Assembly: GCA_914767715.1 (NCBI GenBank) | Contig: OU612070.1 | Location: 11,551,501-11,615,500, forward strand | Direction: 5' to 3' | Origin: Membranipora membranacea | Lineage: Eukaryota; Bryozoa; Gymnolaemata; Cheilostomatida; Membraniporidae | DNA length: 64,000 nt | Part shown: positions 12,087 to 46,690 of the stretch, one piece after another | Layout of the letters: each line of letters begins with the position of its first letter | Numbering within the stretch: the stretch's first letter is position 1 | Program-made: the position numbers and the translations under genes | The notes under the pieces: generated by a model | The model's database searches: none | What the model was told of the DNA's origin: nothing | The model's input: only the letters and a program-made list of their open reading frames with translations

Positions 12087-15000
12087 ATGGGAGCCGCTTA
12101 TGCTGTTTTGTGTGTCATGCTGGCAAATTATCACCTACCAACTGTTGCCTCTGTGCCCAGAGAGATTGCTGGAAAATGCTATTGGAACAAAGATATACTA
12201 AAGGTACTTGGACATGCTCAATATCTGATGTATTATTTATTGTCATCGACTCATGCTATTCTATCAGGCTAAACCAAGTACAAATCTATCAATTTTCCTC
12301 TTTGTGAGAAGACCTTTATAGTGTCATGTTAGATTCATTAATAGGATATGCCCTTATTCTGTTTTAATGCGCAATTTTTACGTACATTTGTTACCGGCAG
12401 AAAGCGTTAACGTATTATCCCGTCTTATCTATTTTGTCTTTCAGATTAACACAGATGGAACCATCGATCAAATTGACCATATTGATGTCCGGAATAGTAA
12501 AATCCTGATCAAACCATCTTCAAAGCTTCTCTCTAATGCTGCCTACAAATACTTCCATAAAAATGTATGTGTTCAGCGGTATTTAAATCAGTGTGTCTGT
12601 CAATACTTAAAGACGCCTGTCATCCATAGGGTACTTAAATCAAAAGTGGTGAAAAACTGTGGTGGTGTATTTTTTGGCAGCATTTTGCAAGGTGATAGAC
12701 TTATCTGTCAACATATTACCAGCGGAACGTCATTGTTATATCTTAGGCAGTATAGTCTTGTATCTTATACTCATTGAGTTTTTATCAACGTGATTTCATT
12801 TCTGCAGCCAATTTTCTGGATGGAAACTTAGAAGATTTAAAATTTAGCATCAAAATTGAACCACGAATGCGGCCCTCAAAACTATTTCAATGTCCCGAGC
12901 TTCATTTTTAGGCCTATTAAGTTGGGAGAGAAAAATTAACCTAGAGGGCATGGTAAATAAAAATTAGTGTGTGTATGCACATATAGTATTTCCACGTTAC
13001 CTTCATCAAGCGGATTTAAACTTCATTCAGCCTTGGAGGGCTATCCGTATTGTTATATCATAATTGTGGAAGTTGGTGTGGCTAACCTCATTCAGCCTGG
13101 CAAGACAAGCTTTTATGATAATAGAGATTGTGGTCGACACAGACAGGCGGCTTAAGCAACTTAGCAATTATTATTCAATCTTATCAAGTTAGGCCAAGCA
13201 GTTATCCTAAGTCTTTGTTGACATGGAGTATCTTGCACAATGTGAGTTAATTTTTGAGGACCATCTTTTGCTGTGTGACATAAATAGTAGGGGATTTAAG
13301 CTACAGAACTTTGAAGCTTGAAGCAATTAGTTCAGTTAACAATAGATACATTTTAATTACATGGCTACTAATTATAACTAAGTATTTATTTATAACTAGT
13401 ATTTAATTATAACTAGTAAATCATGGTATAAGGCAGTATTGTCTCTGTAATGAGGGGCCTAAGTCTGCACTTCGCAGCACAGGCCTCTGCTGCAGTCACT
13501 GGTCCACTCGACAGCTGGATTGCAACAGACCAGTGCTGTAGTAGGCTATATTGGAGATACACTAAACTTGCTGGTTGTAGCTTGTTTTAACAAACCTCAA
13601 TGTTCACAGAGCTGTATGATTATTGCAGGCAATCTTGATGGCATATCAGAACATGTTACGGCTGAGTGTTTACTGCAATGGAGTATATTCCCAATCAGCC
13701 AGTCTCACCGTCGCTCAGGAAGATTTCAGACTGTTTGTTCACATAACCAGCTCCCCTTTGACCAAAGGCGGCAACCAGACAGGTGAGAAGAAAGCAATAA
13801 ATTACTTGTTTGGTTTGATGTAGCTTTATCCCATGCTAATAATTCATGGGTTATATTTCGCGAATCAGGATGTAGGTTGATGGCACTGCCTCAATGGGTT
13901 GAGAATGCAAGATATCATCTGGATAATAGGATTAGGGTGTTTACATGTGACGCCAGAGGAGCCAGTATGGGCAAGCATGGTTCAGTTCCAGTTGGCATAA
14001 CAAAAATACCCACAGGTTTTTCAGTATCCTACTGTCAAAACAACCACCCATAGTCAGAAGGCAAAATTCACAGCATGGTGTAGACTAGTGGTTGTTATGT
14101 TACATATTGGTGTCACTTAACTTGAGTTGTACTCAGTATTTGGACAGGATGCACAGAATTTTCACTCTTGATCATTGATAGCGGATTTCCGTTGAATCCT
14201 CAATCGGGTATAAATTCCTCCAAATGATATGCAAGGAGTCTATTTCTGCTATATCTACATTTTAATTATCGCAATACTCACTACATTAATATTTGTTTAT
14301 GGAGTAATTAATAATCAATTAAACACTTAATGTGTCAATTTATAGTATTTGCGACTATTTGCGACTAGTACCTGATAATTTATTCACACTTGTTGCCAAA
14401 GGCTACTTCCTATTTATCACTGGTGCTTTTACAACAGTCAAGATCTGTAAGCTGGTGGGTGAATGACCAAAATTTTGTGGGTTTCCTTGTGTGTGGGTGT
14501 AGTGTAACTTGTTTTGTAATGTATACAATAATATGGTACCTGGCCATAATGCCATGGTCAAAATGCCATTGGGACAAAATGCCATTGCCATAATGTCATG
14601 GCCATAATGCCATAGGTGATAACACCACTGAACACTATACCAATGCCAAAATACCAGCTGTACAAAACGCCAGTTGTGTCAAAATACCAGTGGATATAAA
14701 GCCAGATTGGACATAATACCATTTGGGACAACATACCATATCCCAAAATACCGTTGCCATAATGCCAATTAAATGTAAATGTAAATCACTTTTTATTTAG
14801 CTGCTCTCCAGCAATCTTTACATGAATATAAGATAGATACATATACATATTCAATTTAGCGTACTCCTGTACAAGGTAGGAGTGGGCAAGCTAGGCTATT
14901 GTCCAGAGAGCTCACCTCCTTCAGCAGCATGGGTAGTGACCGGGATTCGAACCTGCAACTCTCAGATTGAGATGCTCGAATCCTAACCACTACGCCATCC

Positions 15001-18000
15001 TGCCTGCCAATATATGTAACCAGAGGTGATCAAGCCATGCTGTATTTTTTTGTTAGTCATATTACAGCTGCGAGTTGCTCGGTCAGGGTAGGATGTGGTT
15101 CAGCTGGTTAGACCCATCTCCTTCACTGTTCAAGTCTCAAAGTTTCTACGTTTGATTGTTTTTATCTGGGGTTTGTTGGGCCCCATTGTACTGAAGGCAA
15201 GTGTGTGCTGCAGAAATTGCAGCCAAATATTGCGCCATCAACTCTGTGGGTTATGGCAAATTGTTTGACTCTCTAAATTATGTCTTGGCTTGAAAGATTT
15301 TGACTGGTCTTGTCTGATGCTTTTACCGGTGTCATGAAGGTTAGCATGATTGAACATAGTGTAGGAAAATTCTGATCATGAGTATGCAGCTTAGCATGAA
15401 ATACAATCTTTTTCAGCGTCAAGACACTAAAAAATTGACAAATTTGACTTAACCTACACAAACATCTGAGGCAAGGCCATTTCTAGAAGAGTCATAATGA
15501 TTATCTTTGTATCTTGATACTTTTTTATATTATCTTGTTCATAGCTTTCATCCAGATACCGAGACATTTGGCAACACATTACATTGCCTAGTTTTTCTTT
15601 TTAAACGTAACATGTATAAACTTTTCTGATATTTTTATCCCTTAGTGCCCATTGTATCCGCTATGCACCGCTTGACCAGAGACGCCCCACCAACCCGACT
15701 GTGAGTTTGCACCCTGGCCCTGCCCGAACTCCGGAAATGAACAAAGACCTCTCTAATTGCTTGTTATTGGTTTTAATAAATTAAGTTTGTTTGATCACGC
15801 TTTGTATTCATGGTTTGTTATCATATTCAAAATATTTTGAATTGAGTATGATTTTAATAAAAGTTTCAAAATTCTGTATTCAAAAAGCTTTTGTAATGGC
15901 ATTATTTTTAGTTTTTCTAAATTTTTAGAAATGTGACCCCTGGTCTTATTCCCTTGATAACACGCAGAGCATTTTATTGTAGAGTCGTATCTGGCTATCA
16001 CAAGCGTCGCCCCAGAACTCTAATTCTAATGCTGGACTGAGTGCTTGTATCATCATCAGGGTGAAATTTAATTCCTTTTTCAGGCTTCTAAAATGTTCAT
16101 GGAAAGTTATGTTGGTTCTTTTTCTTCTAAAATAGTTCCTGAATACGAGCTTTTAATTTTCTGGTTAAAAATTTTGTTTGGGGTTTCAAAAAGATTTTCT
16201 CATAGGTTATCACAAGACAGTTGGTGATACACCGTTCATTTATCAGACTTAAATTTCTCTTCATAATGTCAGGTCCAGTACTAAAAATATTGGTATTTTC
16301 AGCAAAAAGTATTCAATTTAGATCAGGTGATGCATTTAAAAGGTCAATATTAGAAATTATAAATAGTGCTGTCCCGAGAACCGAACCCTGGGGAGCACCG
16401 ATCATGACAGGCAGTAAAGCCGACTTAATTACCAAGACAAACTGCTTTCTTTTCAAAAGATAATTTTCTAACAGTCGATGAGGGGGAAGAATATCTGAAA
16501 AAATATCTGTTCAACTTATAAGAATGCCGTGATTTATTGTATCAAAAGCTTTTGAAAGATCTAAAAACAAACCCTGGGTGATTCTTCTATCATAAAAATG
16601 GTTGTAAAGTTGTTCCATTATAATATTGATTGTCTCAGTTGTACTGCGCGTCCATCTCATGCCAAATTTATAGGTGTTTGGCAGTTGTCACTTTAGGTTT
16701 TATTTATCTTATCATCATATTCTCGCAACGCATGTTTTATGATAAACTTTAAATTATTCTATTTATTTCATCAACTAAAGTTTTCAATTTTAGTAATTTA
16801 TCACATGTACAATACTTGGAACTCATTATTTCTGAACAATAATTTCTAAACGTTTTATAAACAAACTTCATTATTATTGTTATTGAAGCTTTAATGACCA
16901 ATGAATATAAGTTGTGACACACTGGACTAAAAATTAGTAGTAACACGTTTGAAAAGAATAATTCTGCATAAAATGTGTTGTTGCGGAGTGAACACTACCA
17001 ATGAGCACAAGCAGGCTCAATCCCATCATAAAAACATGTTTTAATAGTTTCTGTTCTCCACTCAAAATCAAATGTGAAATCAAACAGAAAAAGCGGGGTG
17101 CTTGACCAAGGAGTTGGAGACAACTCTTAAAGTATAATTTAGTGTCCTGTACGCCGACCTGCGTGTCACAACACGGGTGGGTTTTATTTTGGCATACGTA
17201 TCGGTGTAGGAGAATTTTGTTCTACACTATTATAATCACACATTTTGTTAAATAAATCTAAGTTTAATTTACACAAGTTGTGTTAGTTTACAGTCCCGCG
17301 GGTAACAAAATAATTTGCCAATAATTCCAAATTTTGCGGCAAAGGCTCTGCAAAACAGTGTTCTTTGCTGTGTACTATTACAGCTTAGATGCTTGTGCTA
17401 TCTGAATGACTATTGTCAGATTTTCCATAGTAAATTAGATGTAATTTTGTTTCCTGTGCATTACCCGCAGTCTACAACAGGTGGAAGGCAATTTTGGTGG
17501 TTTATCATAATTAAACCAGTAAATTTTTGTGTTGGACATACAAAATTCTCAACATTCTCATTAAATGGAAACGAATGAAGTTTCGTTGCATATCTATTTA
17601 AGAAAAACAAAAACTTTGCCTAGTCACACCACATTTTGACGAAACAGCTCTGAAATTGGCTTTCATACCTTTGAGTATTGGAAAACAAATTTTGAAGTTG
17701 TGAAAAACCTATCTATATACTCATTATCATATACTAAATTTATAACATGGAGTTCAAGTTGTGAACGCCCTGTGTGTCACAAACCCTTATAAAATGACTT
17801 TGCTGCATACTATGGCCATGGCCTAACCGTGAAAGTTCATTTGGGTGAACAAATTTTTTCTTTTTGTAGTCTTATCAAGTCATTAGTGGCATGAGTCTCT
17901 AGGGCAGCAATGAGTCAAGACTTGGCTTTCAAAATAAAGTTGGTGGCAGAGCTGTGCTCAAGTACTTTTTTTCAGTTCAAATAGAGTAAGCGAGTACTCA

Positions 18001-21000
18001 AAACAAAATCGAGTACAAGTATACACATGTTTCTGCTTTCCGAGTACAAGTAGAGTATCACAACTTGATTCCGAGTACAAGTAGAGTTATCTCTCAAATT
18101 TCAAGTTCAAGTAGAGTTTTCCTTCTGAATTTCAAGTACAAGTATAGAGTACATTAATCAAATGTCAAGAACTTTTTATCAAATTAAAGTAAAACGAACA
18201 AACAAGTAAAACAGCCAAATTAACCAGTACAAGTAGGCCTATATATATAATATGATAATGATTAGGGTATGATAATAATATGATAAAATAATATGATAAT
18301 ATAATAGTATAATGTCCAACTATCCCCGGGTTCTAGTTTTCTTTATTTATACTAGGCCCTGCAGCCTGTTGCATTTGCAGAAAATGAGGTTCTCCAGAAC
18401 GGCATCGCTCATTGAGGCGCGTTGTGGCCTCATCAAGATGCCACCGTGAGAGAATATCCTCTCGACGGCAGCAGAACTTGCCGGCACACGCAACACTTTT
18501 TGGGCAAGAGGGTACAGCTTGAAGACTATTTCCCGCTTTCGGTGCCAGAACACCAACGAATCGCGTGCTGCCATGGGTGTTAATCTGGCGAGCTCCAGAT
18601 ACATAGTAAACTGGCCGCAGAATTATTATGCGTCAACAGGGAGTTGACAACTCCCTGGTGCAAGTAAGAGTAGAGTATATTTGATGTAGAGTAAAGTAGA
18701 GTAGAGTATTTAAGTTTGCAAGTAGATTCCGAGTACTTCTTCCCAAGGGAGTACAAGTAGAGTATATTTATCCCATATTATGGCCCCTTCGAGTAGAGTA
18801 GAGAGTAGTTGAAATCGGTACTCGAGTAGTACTTGTACTCGAATTTGTACTTGAGTAGCACAGCTCTGGTTGGTAGTAATCCAGAGTTATTGTCATTATT
18901 CTAGAGAATAGTTTGGAATTATTTGTTACAAGTCACTAGCCCAAATATCATCGAAATTGAACAAACGTTATGACTTGCAGCTGAGCCACCTCCTACTCTC
19001 AACGAGCAACTAGCAGCTGTAATACGACTAACACACAAAAAAATACAGTGTGGCTTGATGTCCTTTGGTTACATATTTTGGCATTATGGCAATGGTATTT
19101 TGGGATATGGTATGTTGTCCCAAATTATATTATGTCCAATCTGGCTTTACATCCACTGGTATTTTGACACAACTGGCGTTTTGTACAACTGGTATTTGGA
19201 CATTGGTATAGTGTTCAGTGGTGTTATCATCAATGGCATTATGGCAATGGCATTATGTCACTGGCAATTTGTCCCAATGGCATTTTGACCATGGCATTTT
19301 GACACGGAGTCCAATGATATTGATCGTTGCATGATAGAAATAGATCAATCAATAAATCTGTCAGTCTAATCCATTGGGCCATTCTCGAAATGACACTCTT
19401 TCATTTCCTGCTGGTCAGTTGCTACTGATCGCTTGTGTGTAGATCCTGCTGCTTCTTGACTTGAGATACAACAATTTGAACAAAACACACATCACAATAA
19501 TAACCATAAAAGCCAATAAGAAAGGCGGCGGTTGATTGATGATGATGATTGAAATATATCACTACTTGCTCACCCCTCCCTAGTGGCCAGACATCTATTT
19601 TTAAAGCATAGAACACAGGCCTATCATACGCAATTTCAGCAAGTCATGGCAAGGAGTCATGGCATCTTGACTTAGAACAAAGGTTTTTCTGATATTTCTT
19701 GCCTACATGATAATCATCCCATCTGATCAGGGATTCCTGACCATATTGCAATATCCCAACATGACCATGAAAGGCTGAATGACTTGCTTCACTCTAACGC
19801 TATATCCCTGGTTATGATTGTTTATTAATTAATTATTGATTAAATAGGATAAATGAGGTATGGGTTGTCCAAAGAATTTTGGGAATTCATGAGAATAGGG
19901 AATTCATGAAATAGGGAATTCATGAGAGGTAGGCCTATATATCATAGTTATTGGCTTACATTTGTACTGCATTCAATTGTAGGTTTGATACAGAACTCTT
20001 TTCAGGGCGCATTGACAGATAACAGTGTTCTCTCTAAATCGGAGGAGACAAAATGTAAAAAGCTGTTATGCAAGCCTGTGTGGCTGGTCCCTCTACCTAT
20101 TTATGATGATAGAATTCATATGAAGATAGCTATAGAAGAATCACCCAGGGTTCTCTACTCAGCTCCATTAAGGTAAGCTTTAAATAATTGTAGTTAAAAG
20201 CTTAGGCAACAAAGTTAGATGACATATTCATCCTGTTCGTTCTCATATATTGGTGTCCCATACTATGACCTCTGCAATGAGGCTGGCATAATTGAGTACA
20301 AAACTATGGTGTGAGAGCCTATGGATTACTTGCACGGAGCAACCTGACTAACGCATTTGCTAAGTTCATACCATAAATAGACCTTTGTGGAAAACATGAA
20401 CATTGATTTAAAGCAAACAGAAAAAAGTAGGGTACACTCTCTCTTTGGTGCAATTGCAATTTGAAGGCAAATTAGAATCAAGAATCTAAGATTCGTTATC
20501 AATTCACATGACACTTGTTCATTTTTGATCAACAGTTTAAAGTAAACCAAAGGCATCCCATTGTGGATATTTGGGTTTCAATTCTTTGCTAATTAAACTG
20601 ATGCCTTGAATATTAATTACAAGGAAATTCAGACATATACACTGCCCAAACCAACCTGCAGGTATAACTTTTTTTATACCCGCAAGTTGGTTTTGGCAGC
20701 GAGCATATCTTGATAGGGCTCATTTAATTGGTCTACCTATACATCTACAGATGATGGGATTTTCAACAATCATTATTTGAAAATTCAATGCTGTATTTTG
20801 TAGGGAATACCTCCTAATAAATCCGTTTTACAATGGAGCATATTTGTTTGGAAAGACTGTGGGCTTGAGTCAAGAGATTGCAAATCTTCTAACATCTAAA
20901 GGTGAGAGCAGTATTAAATGACCCAAAAGCAAAAGATGTTCCTAAATGATGCAGCTGACCAGGAATGTAATACTAATTGAGCAGATTGCCTCAGTTTCTA

Positions 21001-24000
21001 ATACAGTGATAAGTCTCTGATGCAAAACATAAAAACAGCCAAATACTTTAGTTTCTGCACAAATAGCCTCAATTATACCAGCACTGGCGCTGCCTGTTTT
21101 TAGATAGGTTCCTTATTATTAATATGATGATATGCTATGGGTGTAACCTTGGTTGTCACAAATTAAAGGTGGATAAATCCTCCGACCTTGGAACCGGAAT
21201 TAACATTTTTGGATATCTGTGGCAATCGATATGTCATTATAATCACATTTACAATTTACATCCAGGGTAGATTTGTTTGGTGTTGCTGTCTCTTCAGTTG
21301 ATCTGACCTCCCTGCACTGCTCCTTACAATATCCATTCATTTTTGTCAAAATCGTAAAAATAATGTAAATATAAAAAAAAACTAGACAAAACTGGACAGA
21401 ACACAATGTAGAGTGAGGCACATTGTGGTGACTTAACGAGATTGGATTTTGTTGTCGATTGAATTGTGTAGTAGCAACAGGTTTTACTCGTGGTTATCAT
21501 TAATACCCACCCCATAGTCCAGGTTTTTATCAATAATTTGGTCAGATCAGATCACATATTTTTGATCATTGACAATCTTCAATTTGATACTAATGAATTC
21601 TTAAGTACACAAATCAATTTGCATAATGGGTTACTATTTGCATACTCTGTTCAGTTCAGGCCTTAGATATGTAGTAAATGTATTAACTATGTGTATATAT
21701 GTAATATTTGATATACACATATCTTATTTTTACGTAAAATATTATTTTATTTGTGTATGGTACATAGCAATTTCAGGATCTCACCGAATAGCCTTGTGTT
21801 TTTACAGGGGCACAGACTATTGAGTCGACCACTGGGGTATCAGTAATGGATGTTTTAGTTGTCGGTAAGAATTATGTTCTTGTAAGCGATGATAGCTGGT
21901 CAACAGTAACACCAGTCCAGGTGAGTCGAATTTAGTTATTACTCAAACAAATTGACATATTTTATGTTATAATCATTCACTCACTTTTGTCATCAACGAT
22001 CAGGTTGTGAACTCTGTAGGAAAGCATTGAATGCTGCAGATTTCTTAACACAAAAAAAAGGAAGAAATGCTCTGTGGCATAGATTTAAATGTTAGCAGGT
22101 TCATAAGCCATCTCTATCTCCATGAAATTTGTTTGATGAAGTCTCAGTAGCAGGGTAACTTCTATTTGGCTATCCTAGTTTTTCCGTAACATTACAAAGC
22201 AGCCAACTAAACTTTGAACACATTGAGTTCCATTTTAGATATTTTTCTAAACATGAGTATAAGTTTTCTTATTTATTTAGTTTCTAGAAACCCTGCAATA
22301 ACAGCACAATTAATGTTTTCGAAAATTGCAAATGCAAATATATAGGCCTATTTTCACGAGGTTGACATTTCTTGAGTAAGACTCCTAAATTTAGTTTTAT
22401 GTGTGTTTGCATCCTGCAAAGTAAAATAGTATCATGTGATATCCTGTTTGATGACATTATACAAGCTCAAAGCCCGATGCCAACTCCTCTAAAAAAAGAA
22501 TGGTACAAAAATATTTGTATTTTTACGCATGGAAAATAACCTACACATCACAGTACCAAACTTAGTAGCAGGCCATATAAAAGTGATCTGATTGCTTCGA
22601 TGTCAACAGTTGCAAAATCAAAAATTATTTTTAAGGCTTTGATTACTGTGGGTTTCAACAACTATTCTGACTGAGTGTTAATATATTTTCTATTCACCCC
22701 TCCAGCCTCCACCAACAATCTGATATCACAGCAAATTTAGCAAATTGTATTGTCAGATTAAAATTGATATTCCCTGGAACCATTCCCCTATGATTTGGTA
22801 AATGTATATATTAAATTGAATTAGCGTCAATCAGTAAATATTTAGTATTAGTAAAGTATAATAGAGATAGTCATTGATTATTTTACCATTGGATTAAAAT
22901 ATTTGATGAAATTTTATGAATTTTTACACAACCAGGTGATTATCCCAGATTCTCTAGCTAAAGTTGCTGATGTGTGTGAGGACAGCAAAGCTCAAGATGT
23001 ATATGTCATTGCAACAGCTTCACCTGGAGTCCAAATATTCTTTGCAACAAATGTAAGAGCATCTAAAGTACCGTATTGTTTGTGTTGTATAAATTTCTCA
23101 ACTACCTGCATCATTGATAGCAGGGAATGATACTGCATGATTGGTTTAGGTGGAATTGTAAGGCGCCATTCACTAGGCGTTTATATTGATTTGCATCAGG
23201 TAAGACAGCCACATTGTATTAGGACGAAGTTGAGCTGTTTATACATGAAATAATTAATTTTCCATATATTTAAATATACATGTATTTTCTATTTTTAGGT
23301 GGGGTTGATCACAATGTCATTTGATCATAGGGGGAATATGAATACAAGATCAGCATTGCAGAAGTGTGTAAGAAAATTAGAAGTACCGAGTCCATATTCA
23401 GCCAGCAAGGAACTGTTACTGGTTTTTGTGGAGGATGGTCAAGGTCATATCAGCCTCTACTTTGCACGGCAAGATCGTCAAAATGGTACAGTGATAGTTT
23501 AATTTAACTGTATATAAACTGAATTTTCCGAATATCTTCAAATTAATCAAGTTCTCCCCAGCAAGTTTTATGCTGCAAATAACTATTGATAATAATATAT
23601 ATTAAAACGTGATACGAAACTGTAAACTAATTAAGTGTCCAACACATTGAAACGATATATTGTTATATGCTATATGTTATATTGCTACATGATATAAAAC
23701 ACAATTTAATTGATGTTTTCAGAGGGAAAATTAGGTGAGGACAGCATATTGGAGCTTATAGATTTGACTGGACATTGCGAACCTAAAGATGGTTGCACCA
23801 TAGTTGATGCAGAGTTTGATGGTAGTGAGAAAGATTGTATTATAATACTGACCAAAGAATCACAGGGCTCTCCAGGGGATTCAAAGTACAATGTTCTCAA
23901 ATACCACACGGGTAAGGAGTAGTGTTATTTAGCAATTGTCTCCTCTTGGGGTTTGTTGCGTTCCGTAGGCGGGAAGACATAAAAAGCAGTTAATCTAGGC

Positions 24001-35300: not shown

Positions 35301-38300
35301 ACTGTTGACCACATTTACCTAAAATGAGAAATAATACAAATATAGTGTAACCCAATCTTATACATCTTATACAGTAAGGTTTTATGTTGGTATTTGTAGA
35401 TCGCCTGACAGGAAAGCTAAGGAAGGCAATCAAACAGGGAACACCACAGCTTCTGAGGGATGCTATTCTTTGCACTGAAAAAGATTTAGACTTTCACAAT
35501 ATAAAGGTGAGTGCCACCCAGCCATTCTCATGACACAGTTACCTACTAGACTCTTCAAGATTTGACCTCCCAGTAGTTCATAGATGATGAGTCCAAAAAC
35601 AAATGAATGCATTGAGTTGTTAATGACATACTGCCGAAGCTCAATGGTAGATCGGAACTTTTCCGACTGCGTTTAACTATAGTTTGCACATAACTCAATC
35701 TCCACTCTACTTTTTGATCAAAGTGCGACTGCTCGTTATATAAACTGCTAAAATAAGACCACAACTAAGTTCAAGATATTTGATAATTCGCCATAGTAGA
35801 TAAAAGAAATAAAAAGATGTCTCTGGCTGAATTTATTGACAGGATCGAGACGGAACCTTGAATGAAGCTAAAAGTTTGCTGTATAAGATTCTTAAAGATA
35901 AACTAGCTGAGGAGCTGAAAAGAAGAGACTCCATGAAGATTAGAAATGCAATCAACAGATTTGCTTTCTACGGAGTATCAGTAAGTAGTGGATATTGCCT
36001 TGTGGAAGGGAAACTCATTATACTAAGCAATTCAAGCACATGGTGAAATCGAGTACAAGCTGATCATAACAATTGGTTTAGCTGGCTTATGTTAAATCCA
36101 AAATCGGATTTAAATTCCCGGCGAGACTCTTCGTCTTTTCTGCAAAATTGCATGATAAGGAGTGAGTTTGAACATTTGTATCAAAAGCTTAATTTTAATG
36201 TAAAATACCGAAATAGATCTGACATGACCATTGAGACATCCTTTCCTAATTGCTGTAAATGTATATGTCATCAAACTACTTGCAGGACGCATCCGGATTT
36301 TTGGAGAAAGCAAACAAGAACCTGTACAACCTTGTCATACCACCGATAGCTAAAGCATTAGACACTGCTAAAACACCTGATGAGATCCATAAAGTAGTCA
36401 CAAGAATCAGGGCAGAACTGAACAGATATGGTCTACAAGATAAAGATAGTGTCGCTTCCAAAGCTGAGAAGGTGAGAATACATCATTTTAATTAGCTTTA
36501 TTCATATAACCAGGCCAGTCACCGCCTAATCATGCTTTCATCTTGTTGAATAATCATCATAACCGGATCAAACAGTTATTCTACGTCTTATAAGGTTGAG
36601 TTTTGCTTTCAACCACCCATAACGACAATGAGAACAGCAAAGAACAGATGATGATTTACCAAGACAAATGCCATTCCTTATATTTTAGATGTTATATGAT
36701 GCAATAGCTAAACAACTTCAGAACGCAATTAAAGTCAAGTCTCAGCCTAAAGACTTGGCCATTATCTTGTCAGCTTTCATAATGAGCAAAAAACAGTACA
36801 ATATCACCCAGGACCTAAGAAGTAAGTAATGTTACGAATAGCAACGAAAATCATTTAATTGGCATGGTGACCTTTCTCCTTATACATTCTTCCACCCTAC
36901 TATGCTCTCTTCAGATATGTCATATATTAAGCTCTCAACTTTATGGAGGTAGAATCGAGATAAAATTTATTGAGATTTTAACATCCATGTCATTGTCGTG
37001 AACAGTATTGCCCTCTAGACTTCTGTGTCAGTCCGCCTTTATCAATCTGATCAGCTTGTGCCACATTTTTATTGTATCTTTAATTGGCAAAATTGTGGCC
37101 TCTAAAAAGAGGAGAAGGTAATTAAACAAGGAGGTCATTATCCCTCACTGGTGTAAAACTTGCTACAAATTTGATTAGGTTTGGCTGTAAGAAAAGTAAA
37201 TAACAAGAATGCCATGCATATTTTATATTTACGATTGTATATTGCGGAGAGGGAGATAAGGGTAGGGCAATGGTAATCTGGTTATAACAATATACTGGGT
37301 TTAACAAAAGACAATTCTAGTTATGACCATTCTTTTGCCGTACTTATAGAGCTCGAAGAAACGGCCAAGACTCTTTTGTATCGACAATTGATACCTTTCA
37401 TGCTAAAGATTCTCAAAGGACCTCCTTACGACATCCAACAGCTGTCAGCATCTATTGTGGCAGCAAAGATTGAGTTCAGCAGAATAGGCATAGAAGACCC
37501 AGGAGACCTAATCCATATGGCAGAGGAGAAGCTTTATGACTTGACATTTGGGCCACTCAGGGAGGCCGTACAGTATTCCAGAGATAGCAAGGTGAGTAAA
37601 GAGCAGAGAGCTATGAATATATTTGACTTCAATGTTTTTAATATTGTGATTTGCTCATCTTGATCATACAATAACGAATCAAAGATTGTATAAAATATAA
37701 AACTATAATTCTCAAGCTGTGGTGGTTACTGTGCGCATTGAGCGGTGTTGCTCAGTAGCCTGTATTTTTAAAAGAATTGAGATTTCATGGTTGTTCTACT
37801 TTCCTATGAGTTACTATAGAGTTAGTATATTTTTTTCTATACTAGTATACTCATTACAGTATTTATATAGCTGTTTTTGATGATTGACTTTAGACATTAT
37901 GGAATAGAATGAAGAGTGCACAGACAGCACTCAGAGAACATGGGATTGTGGACAGAGAGAACCTGCTTCTGAGGGCTGAGTCACGATTCGCTGAGCTCAT
38001 ATCTATTGAGACTGATGAGGGAGCGCAGAGGAAGGATATTCAAACACTAAAAAAGTAAGCCTCCCCCCAAAACTCAGGGAGTTAAAATTTGTACAGCGTC
38101 TAATAATAAAGTTTCGGTTAGAAGCAATTTTGAATCGTTTAAAAAAAGGAGTTGTGTGCCCATGGCCCTGGGTACCCCGCCACCTAATAGCCAATCACCA
38201 TAACCAATATGATATTGAAAGTTGTTATTATGAAGTATACGGGACCTGATTGTACCACCTGTTTGGAAGATAAATTGCGGTAGGGGATTCATATTGTGAG

Positions 38301-41300
38301 CACTACCATCCTTCCTCTTTTAAATGAGGAATGCAAAATATGAAACCGATAAATTTATCGCTATTTATCTCCAATCCTTTGCAATTATTCTCTTTTAAGC
38401 ATGAGAGAGTTTTTAAAGTTGGTGTCACACCCTCATAAACTGGAGTTTCTAACGATGATTGATAAGAATATCAAGGATGTCTCTGCTAAACTCACCAATA
38501 TGAACAGTTTTCTACAAACTCACAGTAAGTGCTGAAGATGGTACAAACACATTCATGCACTGAATTAAACATCGTTGGGTGTTACCATAGTCTTCTTCTC
38601 ATACCTAAGAGATTTTTCACACCCACTACGCATGCCTTACCTTACCTGGTAAATCATATGACTACACCATCACTTAAGCTGAGTTTGTACAAAAGATACA
38701 ACAAGAAACCAGCAACTTCACATTTGTGGAAACTTTGGGAAAACTTTGCACAGGCAACAGAGTTCCTCTAATCTTTATACACAGGCATCTGTTGCTTACG
38801 TATTTTTGGTCAATCACAAAAGAGAAAAAATACTTTGGGCTCAGTTGCTAGCGATTGTTGTTTGAAATGCAACAGTTCTGCATTCTTTCAACTGGCGCTA
38901 CGATGAGTTGCCGATGCTGGATATCTCTAGCGATTTGTGTTTGCACAGCCGCAACTGTTGATAAACAATCGTTCAGCTATCAAATTGTCAAGAAATCTTC
39001 CCTGTATAAACTCAACTGTAGGATTGTGGATGACTTGCTTTAATTAATAGGAGAACACCAAACTCAACATTCACAATAATAGATATCTGTGATCAAAAGG
39101 CGTAACCATTTTCATTTAGCTACTGAATTTAAGAATCTGTGCGAGGAGCTGAAATACGCCACAGACGAGTTACAAGTCACCGGGGATATTCAAGCCATCA
39201 TGCCGGTCATAATCAAATTTGAGACCAGCGGCTTTCCTGATAATGTTGGCGTACAGAAAGCAGCCTTAGTCGCCGTAGCAGACATTGTCGATGCAGAATT
39301 TAAGAAGGTGAGTACCGATTGTGCAATAATATTATTAACTTTTTGTTGTTCAAAGTTTGAAGAGATTTCTCCACTTTGTATATACTGATCAATAGTGATC
39401 AAGCATTCTCAATTCCATTTCCTACAATTATTGGTGTGGGGGAAAGGTTTATGTCATAAACAAACAGATTGACCTGCTTGCCTTAAGCCAAAGCCTATAG
39501 GATTCAGTTTTTGTTAATGCAGTGGTCATAAATCTTTGCAATATATGATTAACGAATTATATACCATTGAATATATAGTATTTGCTGAAATAAGTCCTGA
39601 GTTAATTACCCACGTCAAGGGAACACCTCAGCGCATCATGAGCTGAAATCGGTATTTGATATTTGGCTTGTTGTAGTACATGACAGAACAAAACTATGCC
39701 AAGATTGCTCTGCTCAGAGATGTGGTAAATACGGCAGCAATGGAACCAAGAATAAAAGACCTGTATTACCTGCTGACAGTGATTTGTGGAAAGTTTATCA
39801 CAATACGAGCAGGTATGCTTTTACCAATAGTTACAGTTTATATTAAAGCTATCCAAACACTTACTGCAATAGAAAAGTCTGTTTTTGTTGCATTGCGATG
39901 GCAGATTCTTCACCATGATGTGATCCTTCTAGTATTGACAGACTACTTATATTTATCGCCGGTCGTTGATGATATAGAATAAATAAAACCATAACTACAA
40001 ACTAACATAACTAACAAAAATATGCAAGTTGAGCGCAAATATTAAAGGGAGACTAGAGTGCGAACATCCTTTGATTTTGAAATGTATTAAATCCATTCTG
40101 CTTTCAACAGATATTGAGATCGCCATCGCTGACAAGTCGTTAGAGCTGTCCAAGCATCTTCGAAGCCTTGATACTACACTGAAAAGTCTGAGATCACTGA
40201 AGCCAGCTTTACCTGCATACTACACTGCACCTGTACAGAAACTAGAAGATAAGATGAGAGAGCTGATGGCCAAAGCAGAAGAGAACGTAGCTTTCCTCAC
40301 TAGTATTGAGGAAATAAGAAGCGATGTAAGCATTGATTGTATACTAAATTGGTCTTAGATTCATAGCTGGAATGGTATGAGTTCATGAGTCCGAGCAGTG
40401 AAATGTGGGCTTGTAGGATTGCGCATTTGATATCTACTGATAAGGGATTGGAGCTGCAGGAGTAATGGTTTTCAGTCTCACTAGGGGAGTTTGCCAATCA
40501 CCCAAGCACCAATATGTATACACTTCCAGTTTTGTGCTTTTGCTGTATTGCTTGCTGTATTGACAATAGATGAGTCTTTTTGTTCGCCTTTTCACGCATT
40601 TAGTAGTGCAATTTTATGCAAACTAGTAAAAAGTGCCTCCCATAAGGGAAGGTAACTCCCATACTTTGCATTATGATGACACACTGTCCCGGAAGTGCTT
40701 GTTTCTTGTATCAAACTTGTATGTACCTTCCCTTATGGAAGGCACTTTTTCCACCATCAACAACTCATGCCAAGTTGAGCATTGAATTTTTTTACCATGC
40801 ATATCTGACAAAACTGTATCATAAGTAACTGCCTGACCATATATTTTATTTACTTTGGCAGCTGACTCATATGAATCCGGTAGACATCATTCAGTTGGAC
40901 AAGTACACCATTGTACCGGCGGCAGTGTTTGATATTCTTCGGGCTTTCCTTACTATACTTGGAAGACAGCGAACTGAAACTGAGGTCTGACCTTAGACAA
41001 TATATATTTAGGTTAAGTTTCTGGAGATCTTTAGATCAGTGCAATAAAATGCTATCCGGCTATAAAAAATATCCGGGGGCAGTCAGTGGGCAGCAAGAGT
41101 TTGAGTTACTCACACTAAATAAATTTTAGTTATGGGTTCTTAGTATGATAACATATATACAGATCGCATGTTGTCCTGCAGAGACAGCAATCTATAGGTG
41201 CAATGTGTTTGAACAATACATTTGAGAACAACCGCTAAGGTTTGATATATGTGGTAAAGTTCCATGTTCTCATAGAACATGCCTAGTGATGTTCAAACGA

Positions 41301-44300
41301 TACAAAGTTCCCAAGGACAGGCCTGTTTCATATTTTTTGTCTTTTTTCTCAAAATTACTGAAAATTCATATTCCAGAATTTGCGTTAATATAGACTTCCC
41401 ACACTGCATTTTATTAGACAACCTTTTGCTAACAAAAATCTGTAATGTTTTCTCAGAGATGGATGGATATAAGAGCAGAAATTTCAACATATACTCTCAT
41501 AGCAGGATTACTGAGTGAGGCTCAGAACTACACACTGGGATCAACAGACATGCTTGAGCTTCTGGATGCCAGAGATTATTGTGAACCTCACCTTGGTCAT
41601 ATCAATGTAACAGAAGAGAGCAGTGCTGAGCAGACAACTCTTGCTGTCTTACTCAAATGGGTAAACAATCACGCATCATTTTACATCGCCTAAAAAGCCT
41701 AAATGTTTGTTCAAAGTAATATGGTAAGCCAGCTAACCAGCCATCTAGACTGGTGCAGCTGATACATTCTCAGCAAAGAGTTTTTGTAGACTAATCTGCC
41801 GCCATGAGAGAGTTAGCACCACTCTCCCAAACTGATGATACAGCTCACATCAATATGAAACCACAATTTCTTCACTTCATGATTAACCAACTCTGTTTCT
41901 TAGGTGCTTCTGGTGATCAATGAGTCCACAATGCATTTCAATGAACTCAGAGGAGATTTGCACACTGTGGTTGCTCGTTTCAAGGTTTGTAGATATCTAA
42001 ATACGTCAAATACGGGTTGTTCTCTATTGATCATAAATGCCGAGTTCCAGAGTTGAACTGGCTCAATTATACAGATTGTAAAATTTGGGATCGACTATTT
42101 ATTTTATTTAATGTTACATAAGTTTCACCTTCAGAGCCCAACATGATCTAGGAAAACAAGCATAGACAGATTGTACATTGTCATGCTACCACAAACAAAC
42201 CTTTAGCAGGGACCACAGTTTATGACATGGACAGAGCAAGTTTCGGTCTGTTTCATACGCTCTGTGTCAAACAGTATTTTCAGGATTTTGGCTAGGGTAA
42301 CATCTCGCTTCAACAGTTGCATTTTCATAACCTGCTGTGAAATTCATCTTAAATTGTTTTTGAGCTTCATTTTCTGAATGTTTCTTTTATCACCATGTAC
42401 GACAAAGTTTATCCAACTGCTTCATCTAATTCGGAATTATCTCCACACAAGTAATTACTGTGAGAGTCAATAGCCTATTGCCACTCCATTAGGACGATTC
42501 ACGAAAGCTGATAGTTCGGTATAATATGAATAATCCGGGCTTAATCCAAATAATAATCATTGGTGGTCAATTTCATTATTATCTAGATCATTCTCTTTCT
42601 TAGAAACACAAAGCAGTGAGTAAGGAGCAGTCTGTGTCTGCAGAGGCAAAGAAAGATTCCATGGTACATGGTAAGCATATCAACGCCAAAGACGCGCTCC
42701 TGATCAAAGAACTAATCAGCTGTTGTCAAGATATACTGAGACCGGCATGGAAGGCTCCTTACTTAGCCAGATGGGTGCAAGGTATGTTGCGGCCCTGTAT
42801 ATGGGAGTTCAATGTTATGGGAGAGATGATTTAATCCATTTCATAGTGAGACTAAAAGTTGATGAAACCTAAGTATTTTTTGTGGATTAGTATAGGTTTT
42901 TAAATATTCAGTGTGTTGAATGATTCAAACAGTGGATAGGATATGACGGACATTATGTTGTTATTAGTTAGCTCACTTGCTTTTTACTGTCAAGTGATTG
43001 GAACTACCATGGATTAAAATCGGGAAATTTGGGAAAATTAATGGAAGGATTGTTTAAGGTCCAAATGGTCAAGGGTGCTTTCATTTCAAGATTTTCCTCG
43101 ATGTTTATTCAGGTCAGCTTTATCTTTGTTGTAGGATTCCCAGATGCAGGTGAATCGTGTATCCATCTAAGACATATGATAGAGTTTAAACAGTCATTGA
43201 AACTTTTCAATCTCTATTTCCGGTATGCTCCACAGGAGCCACTCATGAAGGTAAGATTGGTGTGAGAGTTTGGATGACAAAATGGTTGGCCTGATCTATC
43301 CGTCAAGTTTTAGATAGTCAGCTTTTAACTTTTGGGACACTCTTTGAGTGGTCAAGAGTCCTGCTACTAAATAATGCCTATCCTAATTAGGGACAAAACT
43401 ATGTTGTGATTTAGATATTTATGACCTTGAAACTACTACTAACTTTAAATCATTTGTATAAGTTACTGAATCATTGTTGGAATATTTTATGTTGGGACTT
43501 ATTTATGCCAATCAGGTTTTCAAAAATTTGGCATAAAAAAACAGCATACTACTTTGAAAACACAGAAACGTCTGCCACTGCCAGTTCTTACCGCCAATGA
43601 ATTTGGAGTGCCTTACTCTGCATGCACTCCCATCTCAATGTGGATTATCACCATCACCTGATTGGACTGCTTTGGAAATAATGTATGTTGATGGTCTGTA
43701 GCTTGATGACCATTAACCCAAACACTTGGAATCTAACACTAATCTGAAAATGCAAAGACTATGCTGGCATATAATTTTTTTTTTTCTAGTACGGGTCCAT
43801 CATTGAGTATACAGGAACAGATAAGAATGGCAAACCAGTCTTCCTCTGTCAGTTTGGTAATATAGACTTTGAGGGGATGGTGAAGAGTTTTCTCCCCTGT
43901 CAAGTCATTCTCCATTTCCTGTACCTGATGGAGATGGTTGAACATATATGCAAAGATGTAAGTTAGTGAGTGATGTCAATATAGTAAGGTAATAGGTAAG
44001 TCAAATAGGATGGTGATTGCATATAAAACTGAATGTATATGATAGGTATTGTGGATGGTTTGTATTCCAATATTACAGTGTTATGATGTCCAAACCCTAG
44101 AAAATTTCTATGCACATAAATCAAGGTTAACCAGACCCAAATCATACCCAATTCTGAACTTAGACGCCTTTTTTAATATCCTCAGCCTAATCTAGTGGCA
44201 TAGGGTCTCTATAACTTTTCCAAGGCACCGAGGCATTGTCTTCAGACCTTTTTAAGCACTTACACCCAACTTAGTAGGGTCCTAACTGGTAAAAATATAG

Positions 44301-46690
44301 GTTGCATTTGACAAAGCTTGCTCAAGGATTACCTCAAATAATATTTCACTTTTAATTTTATTACAGACTGGTTATGACTCGATACTGATCATAGATTGTG
44401 GTCCTCTACAACAAGTCGCTCCTTTACTAAAGTCTGAGGCTCTGAACTGGTTCCATACAATGCACACTATTATGAAGCGGATATATCCTGGTCTTTTTAA
44501 GATGGTTTATGTACTCCATGGTATGTATACTTTTATTTGTGAGACACAGGCTAGGATTGGAACACTGTACAACCCATTGCAACTGCCATAATTGTCTGAT
44601 GAGAGTTGAAAGTGCATTGTGTTCTTTGGCATAAACTGGTATTGAAAATATGAATTGGCAGTAGTTTTTTGGATTGTTATAGGACACTATGCAGCTGTTA
44701 GTTCAGGGACAGAGAAAGTGAAAAGACAAACTTTTTATGCTACAAAAAACACAAACAAGTTAGACGGTTAATAGGTTGTAATCGGCCTGAGTCCATGTTA
44801 ACTCGGCAAAACAATACTTGTATGATCAAAACAGAAATGACTGAATTCCCCTCTCTGATTTTCAGGCTCTAAATACAAGAAGGCCACAGATGCACATAAC
44901 ATTCCTCTGTTTGAGAGCAGCCCGGAATTTAAAAGTGTATTCCTGGAGGGAGACAATTGTAAGGAGAAAATCTACACTTTAGTTGATAAGCAGTACCTTC
45001 CTCAATCACTAGGAGGGTCATACAACATCAACGGTCATCTCAACAGTCCAGCAAAGATACCGACTAGCTATTACCTGTTGGTATGTATGAGCTTATCAAA
45101 ACAAATGTGACACACTGATCCTATGCACTTTTCAATCTCTATTTATCCCCGATCATCAATCAAGTTTGAAATCAATTTGCTTTTGGTGACATCCTCAAGT
45201 TTTTATAAAAACACAATTCGGGAATGCGCATAAGTTCTTAGAGTAGATTCAGGAGGTCAGAACAGTATTTTGTCAATGTACAGTGATTTTTTCCAGTGGC
45301 ATGTTATGGCATGTCAGCCTCGACATGTATGCCAAGTATTATCATAATTTTTTGCCTGAGAAAATAAGTCTTTTAATTCGAATGAGCGTCACACGATGGA
45401 GGGATAGTGATATTATACAAGAACCATCATTTGAATTTGACAGGAACAGGAGCGACACTCCCGAGATCACTGGTTATCTCTCACACTAGATGCAGGTCAA
45501 CCAAAGACATTAACCTATGTACAAGAGCATAAAACGGCTGATGCACTTCTGTTGTAAGTTCAATACAAAATAAATTCACATTTTGGTCTCAATTTTTCCA
45601 TTATTTATATGCATTGGCTTGTTCCTTGTTTTGATATTGAATCATATCCTTGACTTTGAACTCAGATAATGGTGTAAGTGGCTATTCTGAACATCTTACC
45701 TTTTTATTCATTGTGATTTGTCAAGTGTTAGCAAAAATTGAAAAGTTCTTTTATGCTTTACTGCCGTAAAAGATTCTGACTTTCAAGGCCTGGCTGATGT
45801 CACCACCTGATTTTGGCTCTACCGACATACGATTGATCAACTCCAACGTGATTTCGTTGACATACGCATAAGATGAACATTCATAACAGATCAGATTTTA
45901 TTCAATATGGATTCAGCTGAAACTGTTTTTCTTCTAGTGATAATGGAACTAGAGCATCACCGAATTCAGGCAAATTGGATGAAGCTTGATCAAATTATTG
46001 AATGTGTTAGGCCATTGATACTTTGAACATAGTATAAATGTTATTGCTCAGATTTATATCAATGTCATTGTTTCCTTGTTACAGCTGTGAATTTGAGCCC
46101 GACTGTGCTATAGATTTCGAGATTACCTTTACACCTCAAGGCCTGAAGAAGATTCTACCTACCAAAAAGACAATTGTACAGCTCACCAAGATTGATCACC
46201 TGTACTGTAATCACATAGATGCCTCACAGGCTGGAACATGTAAGTCTAGCCTTAGTGTCTAAACTATTCTGATGCTTTTTGTGCCACCCCTCCAGCATCC
46301 TAAGACATATTTTAGGTTCTTAGTCTAATTCAATATTGTGAGACGTGTGACAGGTGCTGTATGAGACATGTCCCACGCAACACCTATCACACGTCTTACG
46401 TCACGTCTGTTCTGAATGGGCACTAAAACAGGAGCTGGCAATACTGCTGTCTGCTGAATCCAGTCATGAGTTGTGGCAGGATACATTTGGGTTGATGGTT
46501 TTCTGTTATAGATCGGATAATATTCACGCATCACCAGTCCTGGTACAAACAGTCAGTTAGATATGAGGCAGGGCTTGCCAACACCGTGGCAGAAATCAGA
46601 GAATATGTGTTTAAGTTGGGAACAGATGAAGAAGGGAATCTCATAGATATTATCGGCCCCGCACTGACCCGTCCAACAGATCATAAATGA
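12087..46690 (+). CDS. CATSPERG: CATSPERG-like sperm calcium-channel subunit with giant cytoplasmic tail (helical repeats, dynein-stalk-like, Sec14-GOLD)
   Basis: Fifty exons were traced from the ATG at 12087 (A at -3, G at +4) to the TGA at 46688-46690. Every junction closes in phase and the total is 7377 nt, about 2458 residues. Order: signal peptide; ectodomain to residue ~1107; one membrane helix (~1104-1124); helical repeat tail (~1155-1898); dynein microtubule-binding-like segment (~1899-2034); Sec14 domain (~2035-2311); GOLD-like end (~2311-2458). The ectodomain and helix match CATSPERG, an accessory subunit of the CatSper channel of the sperm flagellum; known vertebrate CATSPERG is about 1160 residues and stops soon after the helix. 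The extra ~1300 residues are not part of the family as I know it. Alternative: two tandem genes split between 32737 and 32861. The CATSPERG call is firm, the single-gene model moderately so. Confidence 0.75.
14542..15105 (+). mobile_element. GCCATTATG-type repeat element, left inverted copy (interrupted)
   Basis: A run of degenerate units built on CCATAATGCCA, AAAATACCA and AAAATGCCA, then a non-repetitive part ending AGCTGCGAGTTGCTC and a SINE-like head GTAGGATGTGGTTCAGCTG. The same sequence, reverse-complemented, occurs at 18979-19302. A SINE has inserted into this copy (14769-15010). Confidence 0.8.
14769..15010 (-). mobile_element. tRNA-derived SINE inserted in the left GCCATTATG element
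   Basis: On the minus strand the 5' part is tRNA-like: A box TGGCGTAGTGGTTAG and B box GGTTCGAATCC at the usual spacing, then a non-tRNA body and a simple tail of ATTTACA units at 14769-14790. The matching element at 18979-19302 lacks it. TGCCAA at 14763-14768 and again at 15005-15010 looks like a short target duplication. Not a functional tRNA gene: no acceptor-stem pairing was found. Confidence 0.8.
15088..15240 (+). mobile_element. Diverged SINE-like sequence
   Basis: GTAGGATGTGGTTCAGCTGGTTAGA resembles the A-box head of the SINE family found at 30885. The B-box region (GTTCAAGTCTC) is degenerate and the downstream GTGTGTGCTGCAG and ATTGCGCCATC parts only loosely resemble the SINE body. 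It directly abuts the left GCCATTATG element. Confidence 0.4.
15795..16690 (-). mobile_element. Dead LINE reverse-transcriptase fragment
   Basis: Frames on the minus strand carry non-LTR reverse-transcriptase blocks in the correct order: RSTTETINIIMEQLYNHFYD, QGLFLDLSKAFDTINH (motif A), GAPQGSVLGTALF (motif 4/B) and then FAENTNIF where FADD should be. The two catalytic aspartates of the FADD box are therefore lost, and stops and frameshifts break the frame (for example right after KAFDTINHGILIS). The downstream part LKIMPLQKLFEYRILKL at about 15850-15920 is the C-terminal LINE segment. No endonuclease domain seen. Clade (CR1/L2/jockey-like) not resolved. Confidence 0.8.
17947..18868 (-). mobile_element. 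hAT deletion derivative, 922 bp, with TIRs and 8-bp TSD
   Basis: Left end CAGAGCTGTGCTCAAGTAC; the right end reads CAGAGCTGTGCTACTCAAG on the complement. Target duplication GTTGGTGG (17939-17946) and GTTGGTAG (18869-18876), one mismatch. Subterminal regions on both sides (17960-18150 and 18655-18850) are packed with variants of GAGTACAAGTAGAGTA. A simple ATATGATAAT tract lies at 18240-18310. The middle holds the C-terminal end of a transposase. Confidence 0.9.
18347..18604 (-). pseudogene. hAT transposase C-terminal dimerisation domain remnant
   Basis: An 85-codon frame with the hAT dimerisation signature: FWHRKREIVFKLYPLAQKVL, then VPASSAAVERIFSHGG and RPQRASMSDAVLENLIFCK. This is the last part of an hAT transposase; the BED finger and catalytic core are missing, so it cannot be active. 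The frame of this piece is intact, which suggests a fairly recent deletion derivative. Confidence 0.9.
18979..19302 (-). mobile_element. GCCATTATG-type repeat element, right inverted copy (uninterrupted)
   Basis: Reverse complement of 14542-15105 without the SINE insertion: the same order of units from the AGCTGC/GTTGCTC end through ATATTTTGGCATTATGGC, AACTGGCGTTTTGTACAACT and GTGTTCAGTGGTGTTATCAT to CATTTTGACCATGGCATTTT. It also retains the start of a SINE-like head (GAGCCACCTCCTACTC) at its outer end. Confidence 0.8.
20642..20699. repeat. 25-bp inverted repeat with 8-nt loop
   Basis: CTGCCCAAACCAACCTGCAG (20642 on) pairs with the region ending GCAAGTTGGTTTTGGCAG at 20699, separated by ACTTTTTT. 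A few mismatches. In intron 4 of the CATSPERG-like gene, where it would form a hairpin in the pre-mRNA. May be the core of a tiny MITE. Confidence 0.75.
24190..24345 (-). mobile_element. SINE-like copy, second family (minus)
   Basis: On the minus strand: TGGTTAGCGCTATTGCAAG, TGCCAGGCAACTGG, CAGGAGTCATGGGTTTGAGTC, then CACTGGGTAGCTTCC. The same order of blocks occurs on the plus strand at 24720-24830. The GGGTTTGAGTC stretch is B-box-like. Confidence 0.55.
24690..24830 (+). mobile_element. SINE-like copy, second family (plus)
   Basis: TTGATTAGCGCTTGATATTC, TGCCAGGCAATTTGTG and CAGGAGTCAAGGGTTCGAAT form a head with B box GGTTCGAAT. It lies about 400 bp from the inverted copy at 24190-24345, both in intron 9 of the CATSPERG-like gene, so the pair could fold together. 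Confidence 0.55.
24915..24929. repeat. Poly-G homopolymer, 15 nt
   Basis: Fifteen consecutive G flanked by GGATAT and TCCAATG, in intron 9 of the CATSPERG-like gene. Exact length is uncertain. Confidence 0.9.
25685..25829. mobile_element. Hairpin MITE, 47-bp arms
   Basis: Left arm 25685-25731 (CAGTGCATGTTATAGTCAGG...) and right arm 25783-25829 (...CCTGACTATAACACGCATTG) are nearly perfect inverted repeats, with a central palindrome TTCAATGCATTGAA at 25751-25764. No clear target duplication could be read. A partial copy of the same sequence is at 40781-40850. In intron 11 of the CATSPERG-like gene. Confidence 0.8.
29349..29515 (+). mobile_element. tRNA-derived SINE family 1, copy 1
   Basis: Head GGGGTAGCTCAGCCGGTTAT (A box), then a degenerate B region GAATGAATCCCATTGCAGTC, then the family body ACTGAGAGCAACTTGG and GCGGCTGCGCTCTAAAGGCA. 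Diverged compared with the copy at 30885. In intron 17 of the CATSPERG-like gene. Confidence 0.7.
30885..31095 (+). mobile_element. tRNA-derived SINE family 1, copy 2 (best copy)
   Basis: Starts GAGTAGGAGGTGGCTCAGTG (A box TGGCTCAGTGG), B box GGGTTCGATTCCC, then body blocks TGACTACTGGGAG, GTGTGCTCCAACCTG, CAAACTGAGAGCAAATTGG and CGCAGACATAGCAGCC. Same blocks in the same order as the minus-strand copies at 49245 and 51500. In intron 20 of the CATSPERG-like gene. Confidence 0.85.
32588..32729 (+). CDS. CATSPERG: Transmembrane exon (exon 24) and first cytoplasmic residues
   Basis: The preceding exon ends DYAILM; this exon continues ATLIALVTHIICYYFWK, giving one membrane helix, then a basic cytoplasmic stretch ending KKLLSLGKLATI. 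The donor ATAG/GTAAGT is a full consensus and leaves phase 1, matching the acceptor TTTTCCACAG/CC at 32937. If this intron is retained the frame reads two more codons (G, K) and stops at 32735-32737, giving a protein of about 1156 residues, nearly the length of mammalian CATSPERG. This exon is therefore the hinge between the fusion model and the two-gene model. Confidence 0.8.
32937..40325 (+). CDS. Cytoplasmic alpha-helical repeat region, exons 25-39
   Basis: Exons: 32937-33088, 33413-33496, 33898-34017, 34536-34667, 34935-35046, 35400-35506, 35843-35980, 36286-36471, 36689-36821, 37350-37591, 37894-38054, 38400-38524, 39120-39307, 39677-39812, 40111-40325. All junctions agree in phase. The protein is almost wholly helical and charged. 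A unit of roughly 60 residues recurs: an AE/AK-start helix (KAEKMLYDAIAKQLQNAI, MAEEKLYDLTFGPLREAV, RAESRFAELI), a loop, then a helix ending in a G-(I/L)-x-D turn (RYGLQDKD, RIGIEDPGD, EHGIVDREN). No transmembrane or catalytic motif. I do not recognise the family; armadillo-like or spectrin-like packing are both possible. The last exon, with LEDKMRELMAKAEENVAFL, may be the first strand of a coiled-coil stalk. Confidence 0.7.
40628..40750. repeat. Small MITE-like inverted repeat, 27-bp arms
   Basis: AAAAAGTGCCTCCCATAAGG (40628 on, continuing GAAGGTA) pairs with the arm 40724-40750 (TACCTTCCCTTATGG...GGCACTTTTT). Total 123 bp. In intron 39 of the CATSPERG-like gene. Confidence 0.8.
40781..40850. 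mobile_element. Partial copy of the 25685-25829 MITE
   Basis: GCATTGAATTTTTTTACCAT, then ACAAAACTGTATCATAAGTA and ACTGCCTGACCATA match, in order, the reverse complement of 25690-25760. Only one arm plus the centre is present, so this is half of the hairpin element. Confidence 0.75.
40862..41984 (+). CDS. Dynein heavy-chain stalk/microtubule-binding-domain-like segment, exons 40-42
   Basis: Exons 40862-40984, 41457-41660 and 41904-41984, in frame. The order of features follows dynein MTBDs: a coiled-coil-like helix before it, then NPVDIIQLDKYTIVPAAVFD (compare DI-x-E-L-x-S-x-x-x-P-P-x-x-V), ILRAFLTILGRQ (compare VMEAVCILLG), RWMDIRAEI, a variable loop TDMLELLDARDYCEPHLGHI (compare F-x-P-E-x-I/V), SSAEQTTLAVLLKWVLLVI (compare S-x-A-A-x-x-L-C-x-W-V-x-A), and a returning charged helix LRGDLHTVVARFKKHK. 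About 136 residues, the usual size. Identity is low, so this is a fold-level proposal. The AAA+ motor modules of a dynein are absent. Confidence 0.5.
42604..45080 (+). CDS. Sec14/CRAL-TRIO lipid-binding domain, exons 43-47
   Basis: Exons 42604-42781, 43135-43250, 43790-43957, 44367-44520, 44866-45080, all in phase. The N-terminal helical bundle has YLARWVQGFPDAG and HMIEFKQSLKLFNLYFRYAP, the place of the LLRFLRAR-type CRAL-TRIO N region. The core has IIEYTGTDKNGKPVFLCQFG, then DSILIIDCGPL (the I-x-D-x-x-G-L strand), MKRIYPGLFKMVYVLHG (the Y-P-E-x-x-x-x-x-x-I-V-N-A-P strand) and KQYLPQSLGGS (the hallmark L-P-x-x-Y-G-G, with L for Y). Sec14 domains bind phosphoinositides, tocopherol-type or other lipids and exchange them between membranes. 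Which ligand is bound cannot be told. Confidence 0.8.
45444..46690 (+). CDS. GOLD-like C-terminal domain following Sec14, exons 48-50
   Basis: Exons 45444-45553, 46085-46239 and 46512-46690, in frame, with stop TGA at 46688-46690. Sec14-GOLD proteins (SEC14L type) have a beta-sandwich after the lipid domain. Here CEFEPDCAIDFEITFTPQG supplies the first strands and RIIFTHHQSWYKQSVRYE supplies the F-x-N-x-x-S-W-x-x-x-K-x-V-x-Y pattern typical of the last strands of GOLD. The segment between (TKIDHLYCNHIDASQAGT) is the expected loop. The protein ends in a short polar tail after about 33 further residues. Confidence 0.65.
46341..46396. repeat. Hairpin in the last intron of the CATSPERG-like gene
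   Basis: AGACGTGTGACAGGTG (46341-46356) pairs with CACCTATCACACGTCT (46381-46396) with one mismatch, loop 24 nt. It lies between the donor at 46240 and the acceptor at 46511. Confidence 0.8.

Follow-up and report, generated by a model that had tools for sequence, protein, structure and literature searches.

Where does a CatSper subunit end? Little follows the membrane helix of mouse CATSPERG, whereas a stretch of the genome of the bryozoan Membranipora membranacea (contig OU612070.1, positions 11,551,501 to 11,615,500; these 64,000 nucleotides are referred to below as the window) raises the question of whether the same protein can continue, in one reading frame, into a cytoplasmic tail of about 1330 residues. 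Our analysis indicates that it very probably does so in this animal, a single gene encoding a CATSPERG that is fused to the tail. Judged by sequence comparison, a CATSPERG with a cytoplasmic arm made up of helical repeats, a module resembling the dynein microtubule-binding domain (MTBD) and a Sec14-GOLD end appears to be new, and to be present in two bryozoan species. A preliminary description of this DNA had stated that no CATSPERG with such a tail was known. This agrees with the open-licence literature in PubMed Central (PMC), where we found no relevant joining of CATSPERG with Sec14 or GOLD or of CatSper with bryozoans, nothing joining a dynein stalk with Sec14 and, by title among the matches listed, no tethered CATSPERG.

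The gene model extends from 12087 to 46690 on the plus strand and consists of 50 exons with 7374 coding bases, which translate into 2457 residues followed by a single terminal stop; all 49 introns follow the GT-AG rule. Its features, in order, are these:

12087-12203, plus strand: exon 1, with the start codon and a hydrophobic N terminus in translation, which may be signal-peptide-like
20006-28863, plus strand: N-terminal CATSPERG ectodomain, exons 3-16, residues 80-761; mouse CATSPERG matches from about residue 504, the earlier part being unmatched
29218-30634, plus strand: CATSPERG Ig-like domain, residues 775-905 (PF22851)
30728-32629, plus strand: CATSPERG C-terminal domain, residues 937-1120 (PF22846)
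32359-32641, plus strand: transmembrane helix, residues ~1103-1124, split by intron 23; placed by hydropathy, where the alignment with mouse CATSPERG ends
32730-32936, plus strand: intron 24, where CATSPERG and tail are joined; 207 bases, phase 1, with strong splice sites
32937-33088, plus strand: exon 25, the first tail exon; first in-frame ATG inside the exon at 32996
34596-38054, plus strand: helical repeats, residues ~1293-1676, by self-match against shuffles
38400-40325, plus strand: long-helix or coiled-coil stretch, residues ~1677-1897; structure model with a mean predicted local distance difference test score (pLDDT) of 56
40300-41984, plus strand: dynein-MTBD-like module, residues ~1890-2033, by profile score and a low-confidence model
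42730-45503, plus strand: SEC14L-type Sec14 (CRAL-TRIO) domain, residues ~2076-2330 (PF00650, SEC14L4)
45504-46690, plus strand: probable GOLD domain, residues ~2331-2457, and the stop; follows a SEC14L-like linker
46967-46972, plus strand: possible polyadenylation signal AATAAA, 277 bases past the stop

The evidence that decided for a fusion came from a second bryozoan. A protein search restricted to long proteins, in which 7990 candidates were scored, returned a single match, an uncharacterized NCBI protein of Watersipora subatra with 1437 residues (P0001 in the following), and a search with the tail only, again among 7990 best-word candidates scored, returned P0001 alone. The alignment begins inside the CATSPERG C-terminal domain and takes in the helix and everything after it, with 53% identity, so that part of CATSPERG_C, the helix, the entire tail and Sec14 are found in a single product there. 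The fusion of the preliminary description is thereby supported by a predicted protein of another species that carries both PF22846 and PF00650. We accept it because P0001 spans CATSPERG_C, tail and Sec14 without interruption and because both sides of the junction are conserved, while the window DNA is near neutral on this point (see below). Unlike the Membranipora protein, P0001 is annotated with an internal Met as its start, which leaves out the remaining ectodomain, and it has three extra residues at the junction. These residues, 137-139 (YIT), lie exactly at the CATSPERG-tail splice point, and the insert resembles what splicing to a second acceptor, nine bases upstream, would give. On sequence, the order of modules from CATSPERG_C onward is conserved in the two species, and the best explanation is that bryozoan CATSPERG has gained a large cytoplasmic arm at its C terminus. 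A survey for fused or ordinary CATSPERG, in which only a protein of the echidna Tachyglossus (1156 residues) passed among 232 candidates, cannot be read as evidence that the fusion is confined to Bryozoa, because mouse CATSPERG, a known relative, was itself unlisted.

By its sequence matches, the N-terminal half of the Membranipora protein is CATSPERG. Both the C-terminal domain CATSPERG_C (E 9e-28) and, ahead of it, the Ig-like domain (E 1.4e-10) were found above the Pfam cut-off, and phmmer aligned residues 504-1118 with mouse CATSPERG from the solved CatSper complex (PDB 7eeb chain F; E 2.5e-34). Hydropathy reaches its maximum, 2.05, at residue 1103; both lesser peaks, 1.57 at residue 598 and 1.73 at 1913, sit within stretches read as globular. 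The CATSPERG-like ectodomain and membrane helix that had been proposed are therefore borne out by two Pfam families, the mouse match and the position of the hydropathy peak. Residues before ~504 gave no family match, the N-terminal CATSPERG domains PF15064 and PF22840 not being found at E <=10, and the exon model of this part is uncertain. The likeness to the mouse subunit comprises the Ig-like and C-terminal ectodomains and the membrane helix near residue 1103. The difference lies in what follows, as the alignment stops at residue 1082 of a mouse chain of 1145, whereas the bryozoan protein adds three kinds of module past the helix.

The exon chain itself was assembled from the output of a purpose-written semi-Markov splice-and-codon gene finder, with the start, end, junction and exon count of the preliminary description known beforehand. 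Its codon table was trained on predictions from the same window, and the coding scores are therefore not independent evidence. Unanchored on the plus strand, the program returned 44 of the 50 exons of the final chain; with the start set to 12087 and at three exon penalties, it returned 48, 48 and 43, every run ending at 46690. Altogether, 49 exons were proposed in at least one run, the sole exception being exon 2, whose end at 12564 was set by hand. At each of the three penalties, the program also chose exons 13478-13782 and 14346-14454 and placed the end of exon 2 farther on, at 12648 or 12691; we overruled these choices by eye. Because of the hand-set end and the two omitted exons, the model is uncertain between 12.4 and 20 kb. 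The 50 exons with consensus splice sites and unbroken frame reported earlier are reproduced, and the 2458 residues given then fit our 2457 if the stop was counted, in a comparison limited to totals, ends and the junction.

Past the helix, the tail contains repeats of ~46-51 residues, for which the best 40-column self-match scored 60.0, compared to maxima of 18.5-32.2 in 10 column shuffles, in keeping with the helical repeats previously described in a tail of ~1300 residues. Several exon edges fall, by eye, at like positions within the units, and residues 1317-1676 are 66.6% identical to P0001, the highest value among eight tail segments compared. The repeat region had no Pfam match, and no family was assigned. 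Towards its end, the tail almost certainly contains a Sec14 fold: CRAL_TRIO was detected with E 6.7e-7 in the window protein and 6.9e-8 in P0001, and SEC14L4 (4tlg) matched with E 6.4e-14 when a two-sequence profile was used. The only direct sign of the GOLD domain is EMP24_GP25L in P0001 with E 0.025, below the cut-off, and matches to the SEC14L profiles break off at column 269-285 of 418. In the SEC14L family (SEC14-like 2, 3 and 4), CRAL-TRIO is combined with GOLD, and as the likeness covers the Sec14 domain and the linker after it, a GOLD domain in the corresponding place is probable from its position in the sequence. This part would be too diverged here for a significant match and, in a further difference from SEC14L, the module ends a membrane protein. 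Of the Sec14-GOLD end suggested initially, the Sec14 domain has held up well, while the sign of GOLD is weak.

Is the join at intron 24 real? Taken by itself, the DNA of the window hardly tells one gene from two: the fused chain scored 197.0 in the gene finder, compared to 194.0, with no penalty yet applied for a second start, for a CATSPERG stopping in intron 24 (63.6) together with the best separate tail gene, which begins at the ATG at 32861 (130.4). Two adjacent genes, a short CATSPERG and a cytosolic tail protein misjoined in both species, would moreover fit the reading of unspliced intron 24, in which CATSPERG stops at 32735-32737, at most three codons past the donor and at a length near that of the mouse protein, and the ATG at 32861 is in frame and opens into exon 25. 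These points weigh against a fusion, as do the facts that P0001 is a predicted protein without functional name and that its start at an internal Met leaves the full ectodomain off the same product in Watersipora. On the other side, a second gene would leave a gap of 123 bases (start at 32861) or 258 bases (start at 32996) after the CATSPERG stop, and none of the four polyadenylation hexamers searched, AATAAA, ATTAAA, AGTAAA and TATAAA, occurs in intron 24. Among all GTs of the window, the junction donor (TAG/gtaagt) belongs to the best 0.5%, and among all AGs the junction acceptor belongs to the best 1.6%. Furthermore, P0001 is one product across the splice, and the peptide is conserved on either side of it: identity is 57.9% for the 19 aligned residues that end exon 24 and 89.5% for the first 19 residues of exon 25. 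The latter lie upstream of the ATG at 32996, so that a start there would omit the best conserved stretch of the exon, and P0001 has nothing that corresponds to the leader from 32861. We consider two misjoined genes very improbable. A single gene with two products, either a short CATSPERG made by retention of intron 24 (stop 32737) beside the long fused form, or a helix-plus-tail form without most of the ectodomain, is rather unlikely on the same evidence, but a less distant alternative: there is a stop codon within intron 24, and the internal Met at which P0001 starts matches one in exon 22 of the window gene. Against this stand the intron's lack of the hexamers and the chance that the start of P0001 is an annotation gap.

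Even with the fusion real, the helical region after the repeats could be an ordinary coiled coil or helical bundle unrelated to dynein, leaving the tail as a structural or lipid-transfer scaffold only. The sequence likeness to dynein MTBDs is indeed profile-level only and carried mainly by the first half of the module. Neither the window protein nor P0001 had a significant Pfam or PDB sequence match to the dynein MTBD, the model of the module is of low confidence (pLDDT 50), and a model of a longer stretch (pLDDT 56) gave no usable fold match and did not recover the MTBD; all this argues against an MTBD-like reading. However, the profile-profile score to the dynein MTBD, 29.67, exceeded all of 100 shuffles (<=25.29), at a probability of <=30%, and was higher for this module than for other tail segments. 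With dynein stalk and MTBD structures (PDB 3err, 5ayh, 6rzb), the module shares VP/PP and two Trp anchors in near register, and in the model of the module dynein MTBDs came first in VIA and gave the best Foldseek probabilities, in nearly the same register. A plain coiled coil therefore seems unlikely to us, and residues ~1890-2033 probably adopt an MTBD-like fold, as far as profiles and a model of this quality can suggest. The dynein-stalk-like module of the preliminary description persists as a profile score and a leading fold match, not as a significant sequence match or a confident model. As no AAA family was among the three Pfam lines obtained for the tail at E <=10, the protein is not a dynein; in contrast to a dynein heavy chain, no AAA+ motor was found.

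Several further exon candidates were rejected. Exons 12912-12952, 15068-15087, 15646-15700 and 26045-26065, and exon 31001-31091 with an alternative exon 21 start at 31365, appeared in the loosest run only and were omitted. Exon 44683-44766, also from that run only, has no counterpart in P0001 and was dropped, and an alternative exon 16 start at 28665, from the strictest run only, was omitted.

Apart from this gene, the window contains collectin-like exons with collagen and C-type lectin parts on the minus strand at 1050-1942 (Lectin_C 7.1e-16, Collagen 3.1e-15) and, downstream of the CATSPERG gene, a receptor-type protein tyrosine phosphatase on the minus strand at ~52000-63600, combining FN3 domains with two phosphatase stretches (Y_phosphatase 9.7e-103). 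Large intron 2 holds degenerate minisatellites at 14541-14691 and 19231-19301, ~4.5 kb apart, whose units, AATGCCATTGG and TGGCATTTTGTC, look related. A tRNA-like element lies in intron 20 (30895-30975, plus strand), with an A-box-like part that has one match in the window and a B-box-like part, GGTTCGATTCC; no tRNA gene was called there, and it may be a tRNA-derived short interspersed nuclear element.

What could such a tail do for the channel? In mouse sperm, CatSper forms zigzag rows along the flagellum with diagonal intracellular bars (PMC9205950). The mammalian intracellular density has been partly assigned, EFCAB9-CATSPERzeta, C2CD6 and TRIM69 being named in the excerpted text of that paper, which names no direct tie between CatSper and microtubules. 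In the excerpted part of a comparative CatSper survey, Brachiopoda are given as having CatSper and Bryozoa are not named (PMC6660944). In the bryozoan protein, the ectodomain would seat the molecule in the CatSper complex, as in mammals, and the repeats would serve as a rigid spacer or dimerising scaffold beneath the flagellar membrane. The MTBD-like tip could then contact doublet microtubules or another axonemal surface, and the Sec14-GOLD end could fold back to the inner leaflet, where it would sense or hold lipid; the arm as a whole would fix CatSper rows at set places along the flagellum. We lean slightly towards the proposed architecture together with an anchoring role of some kind. For a lipid role of the tail, we see the chances as evenly balanced, and anchoring to microtubules or the axoneme falls a little short of that. 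The most specific picture, in which a bryozoan CatSper subunit binds microtubules by its stalk tip and lipid by its Sec14-GOLD end and ties the channel to axonemal doublets, such that the channel's position or gating answers bending and membrane lipid, is offered tentatively, as less likely than not.

The fusion would markedly change the domain makeup of a protein that, in the mouse, ends shortly past the membrane, and CatSper rows could be held directly by a built-in arm. If the proposed link holds, other animals would make the connection between channel, axoneme and lipid with separate proteins, or lack it. One molecule with candidate contacts to both microtubules and lipid may thus offer a handle on how the channel is placed, and on whether bending or lipids are sensed.
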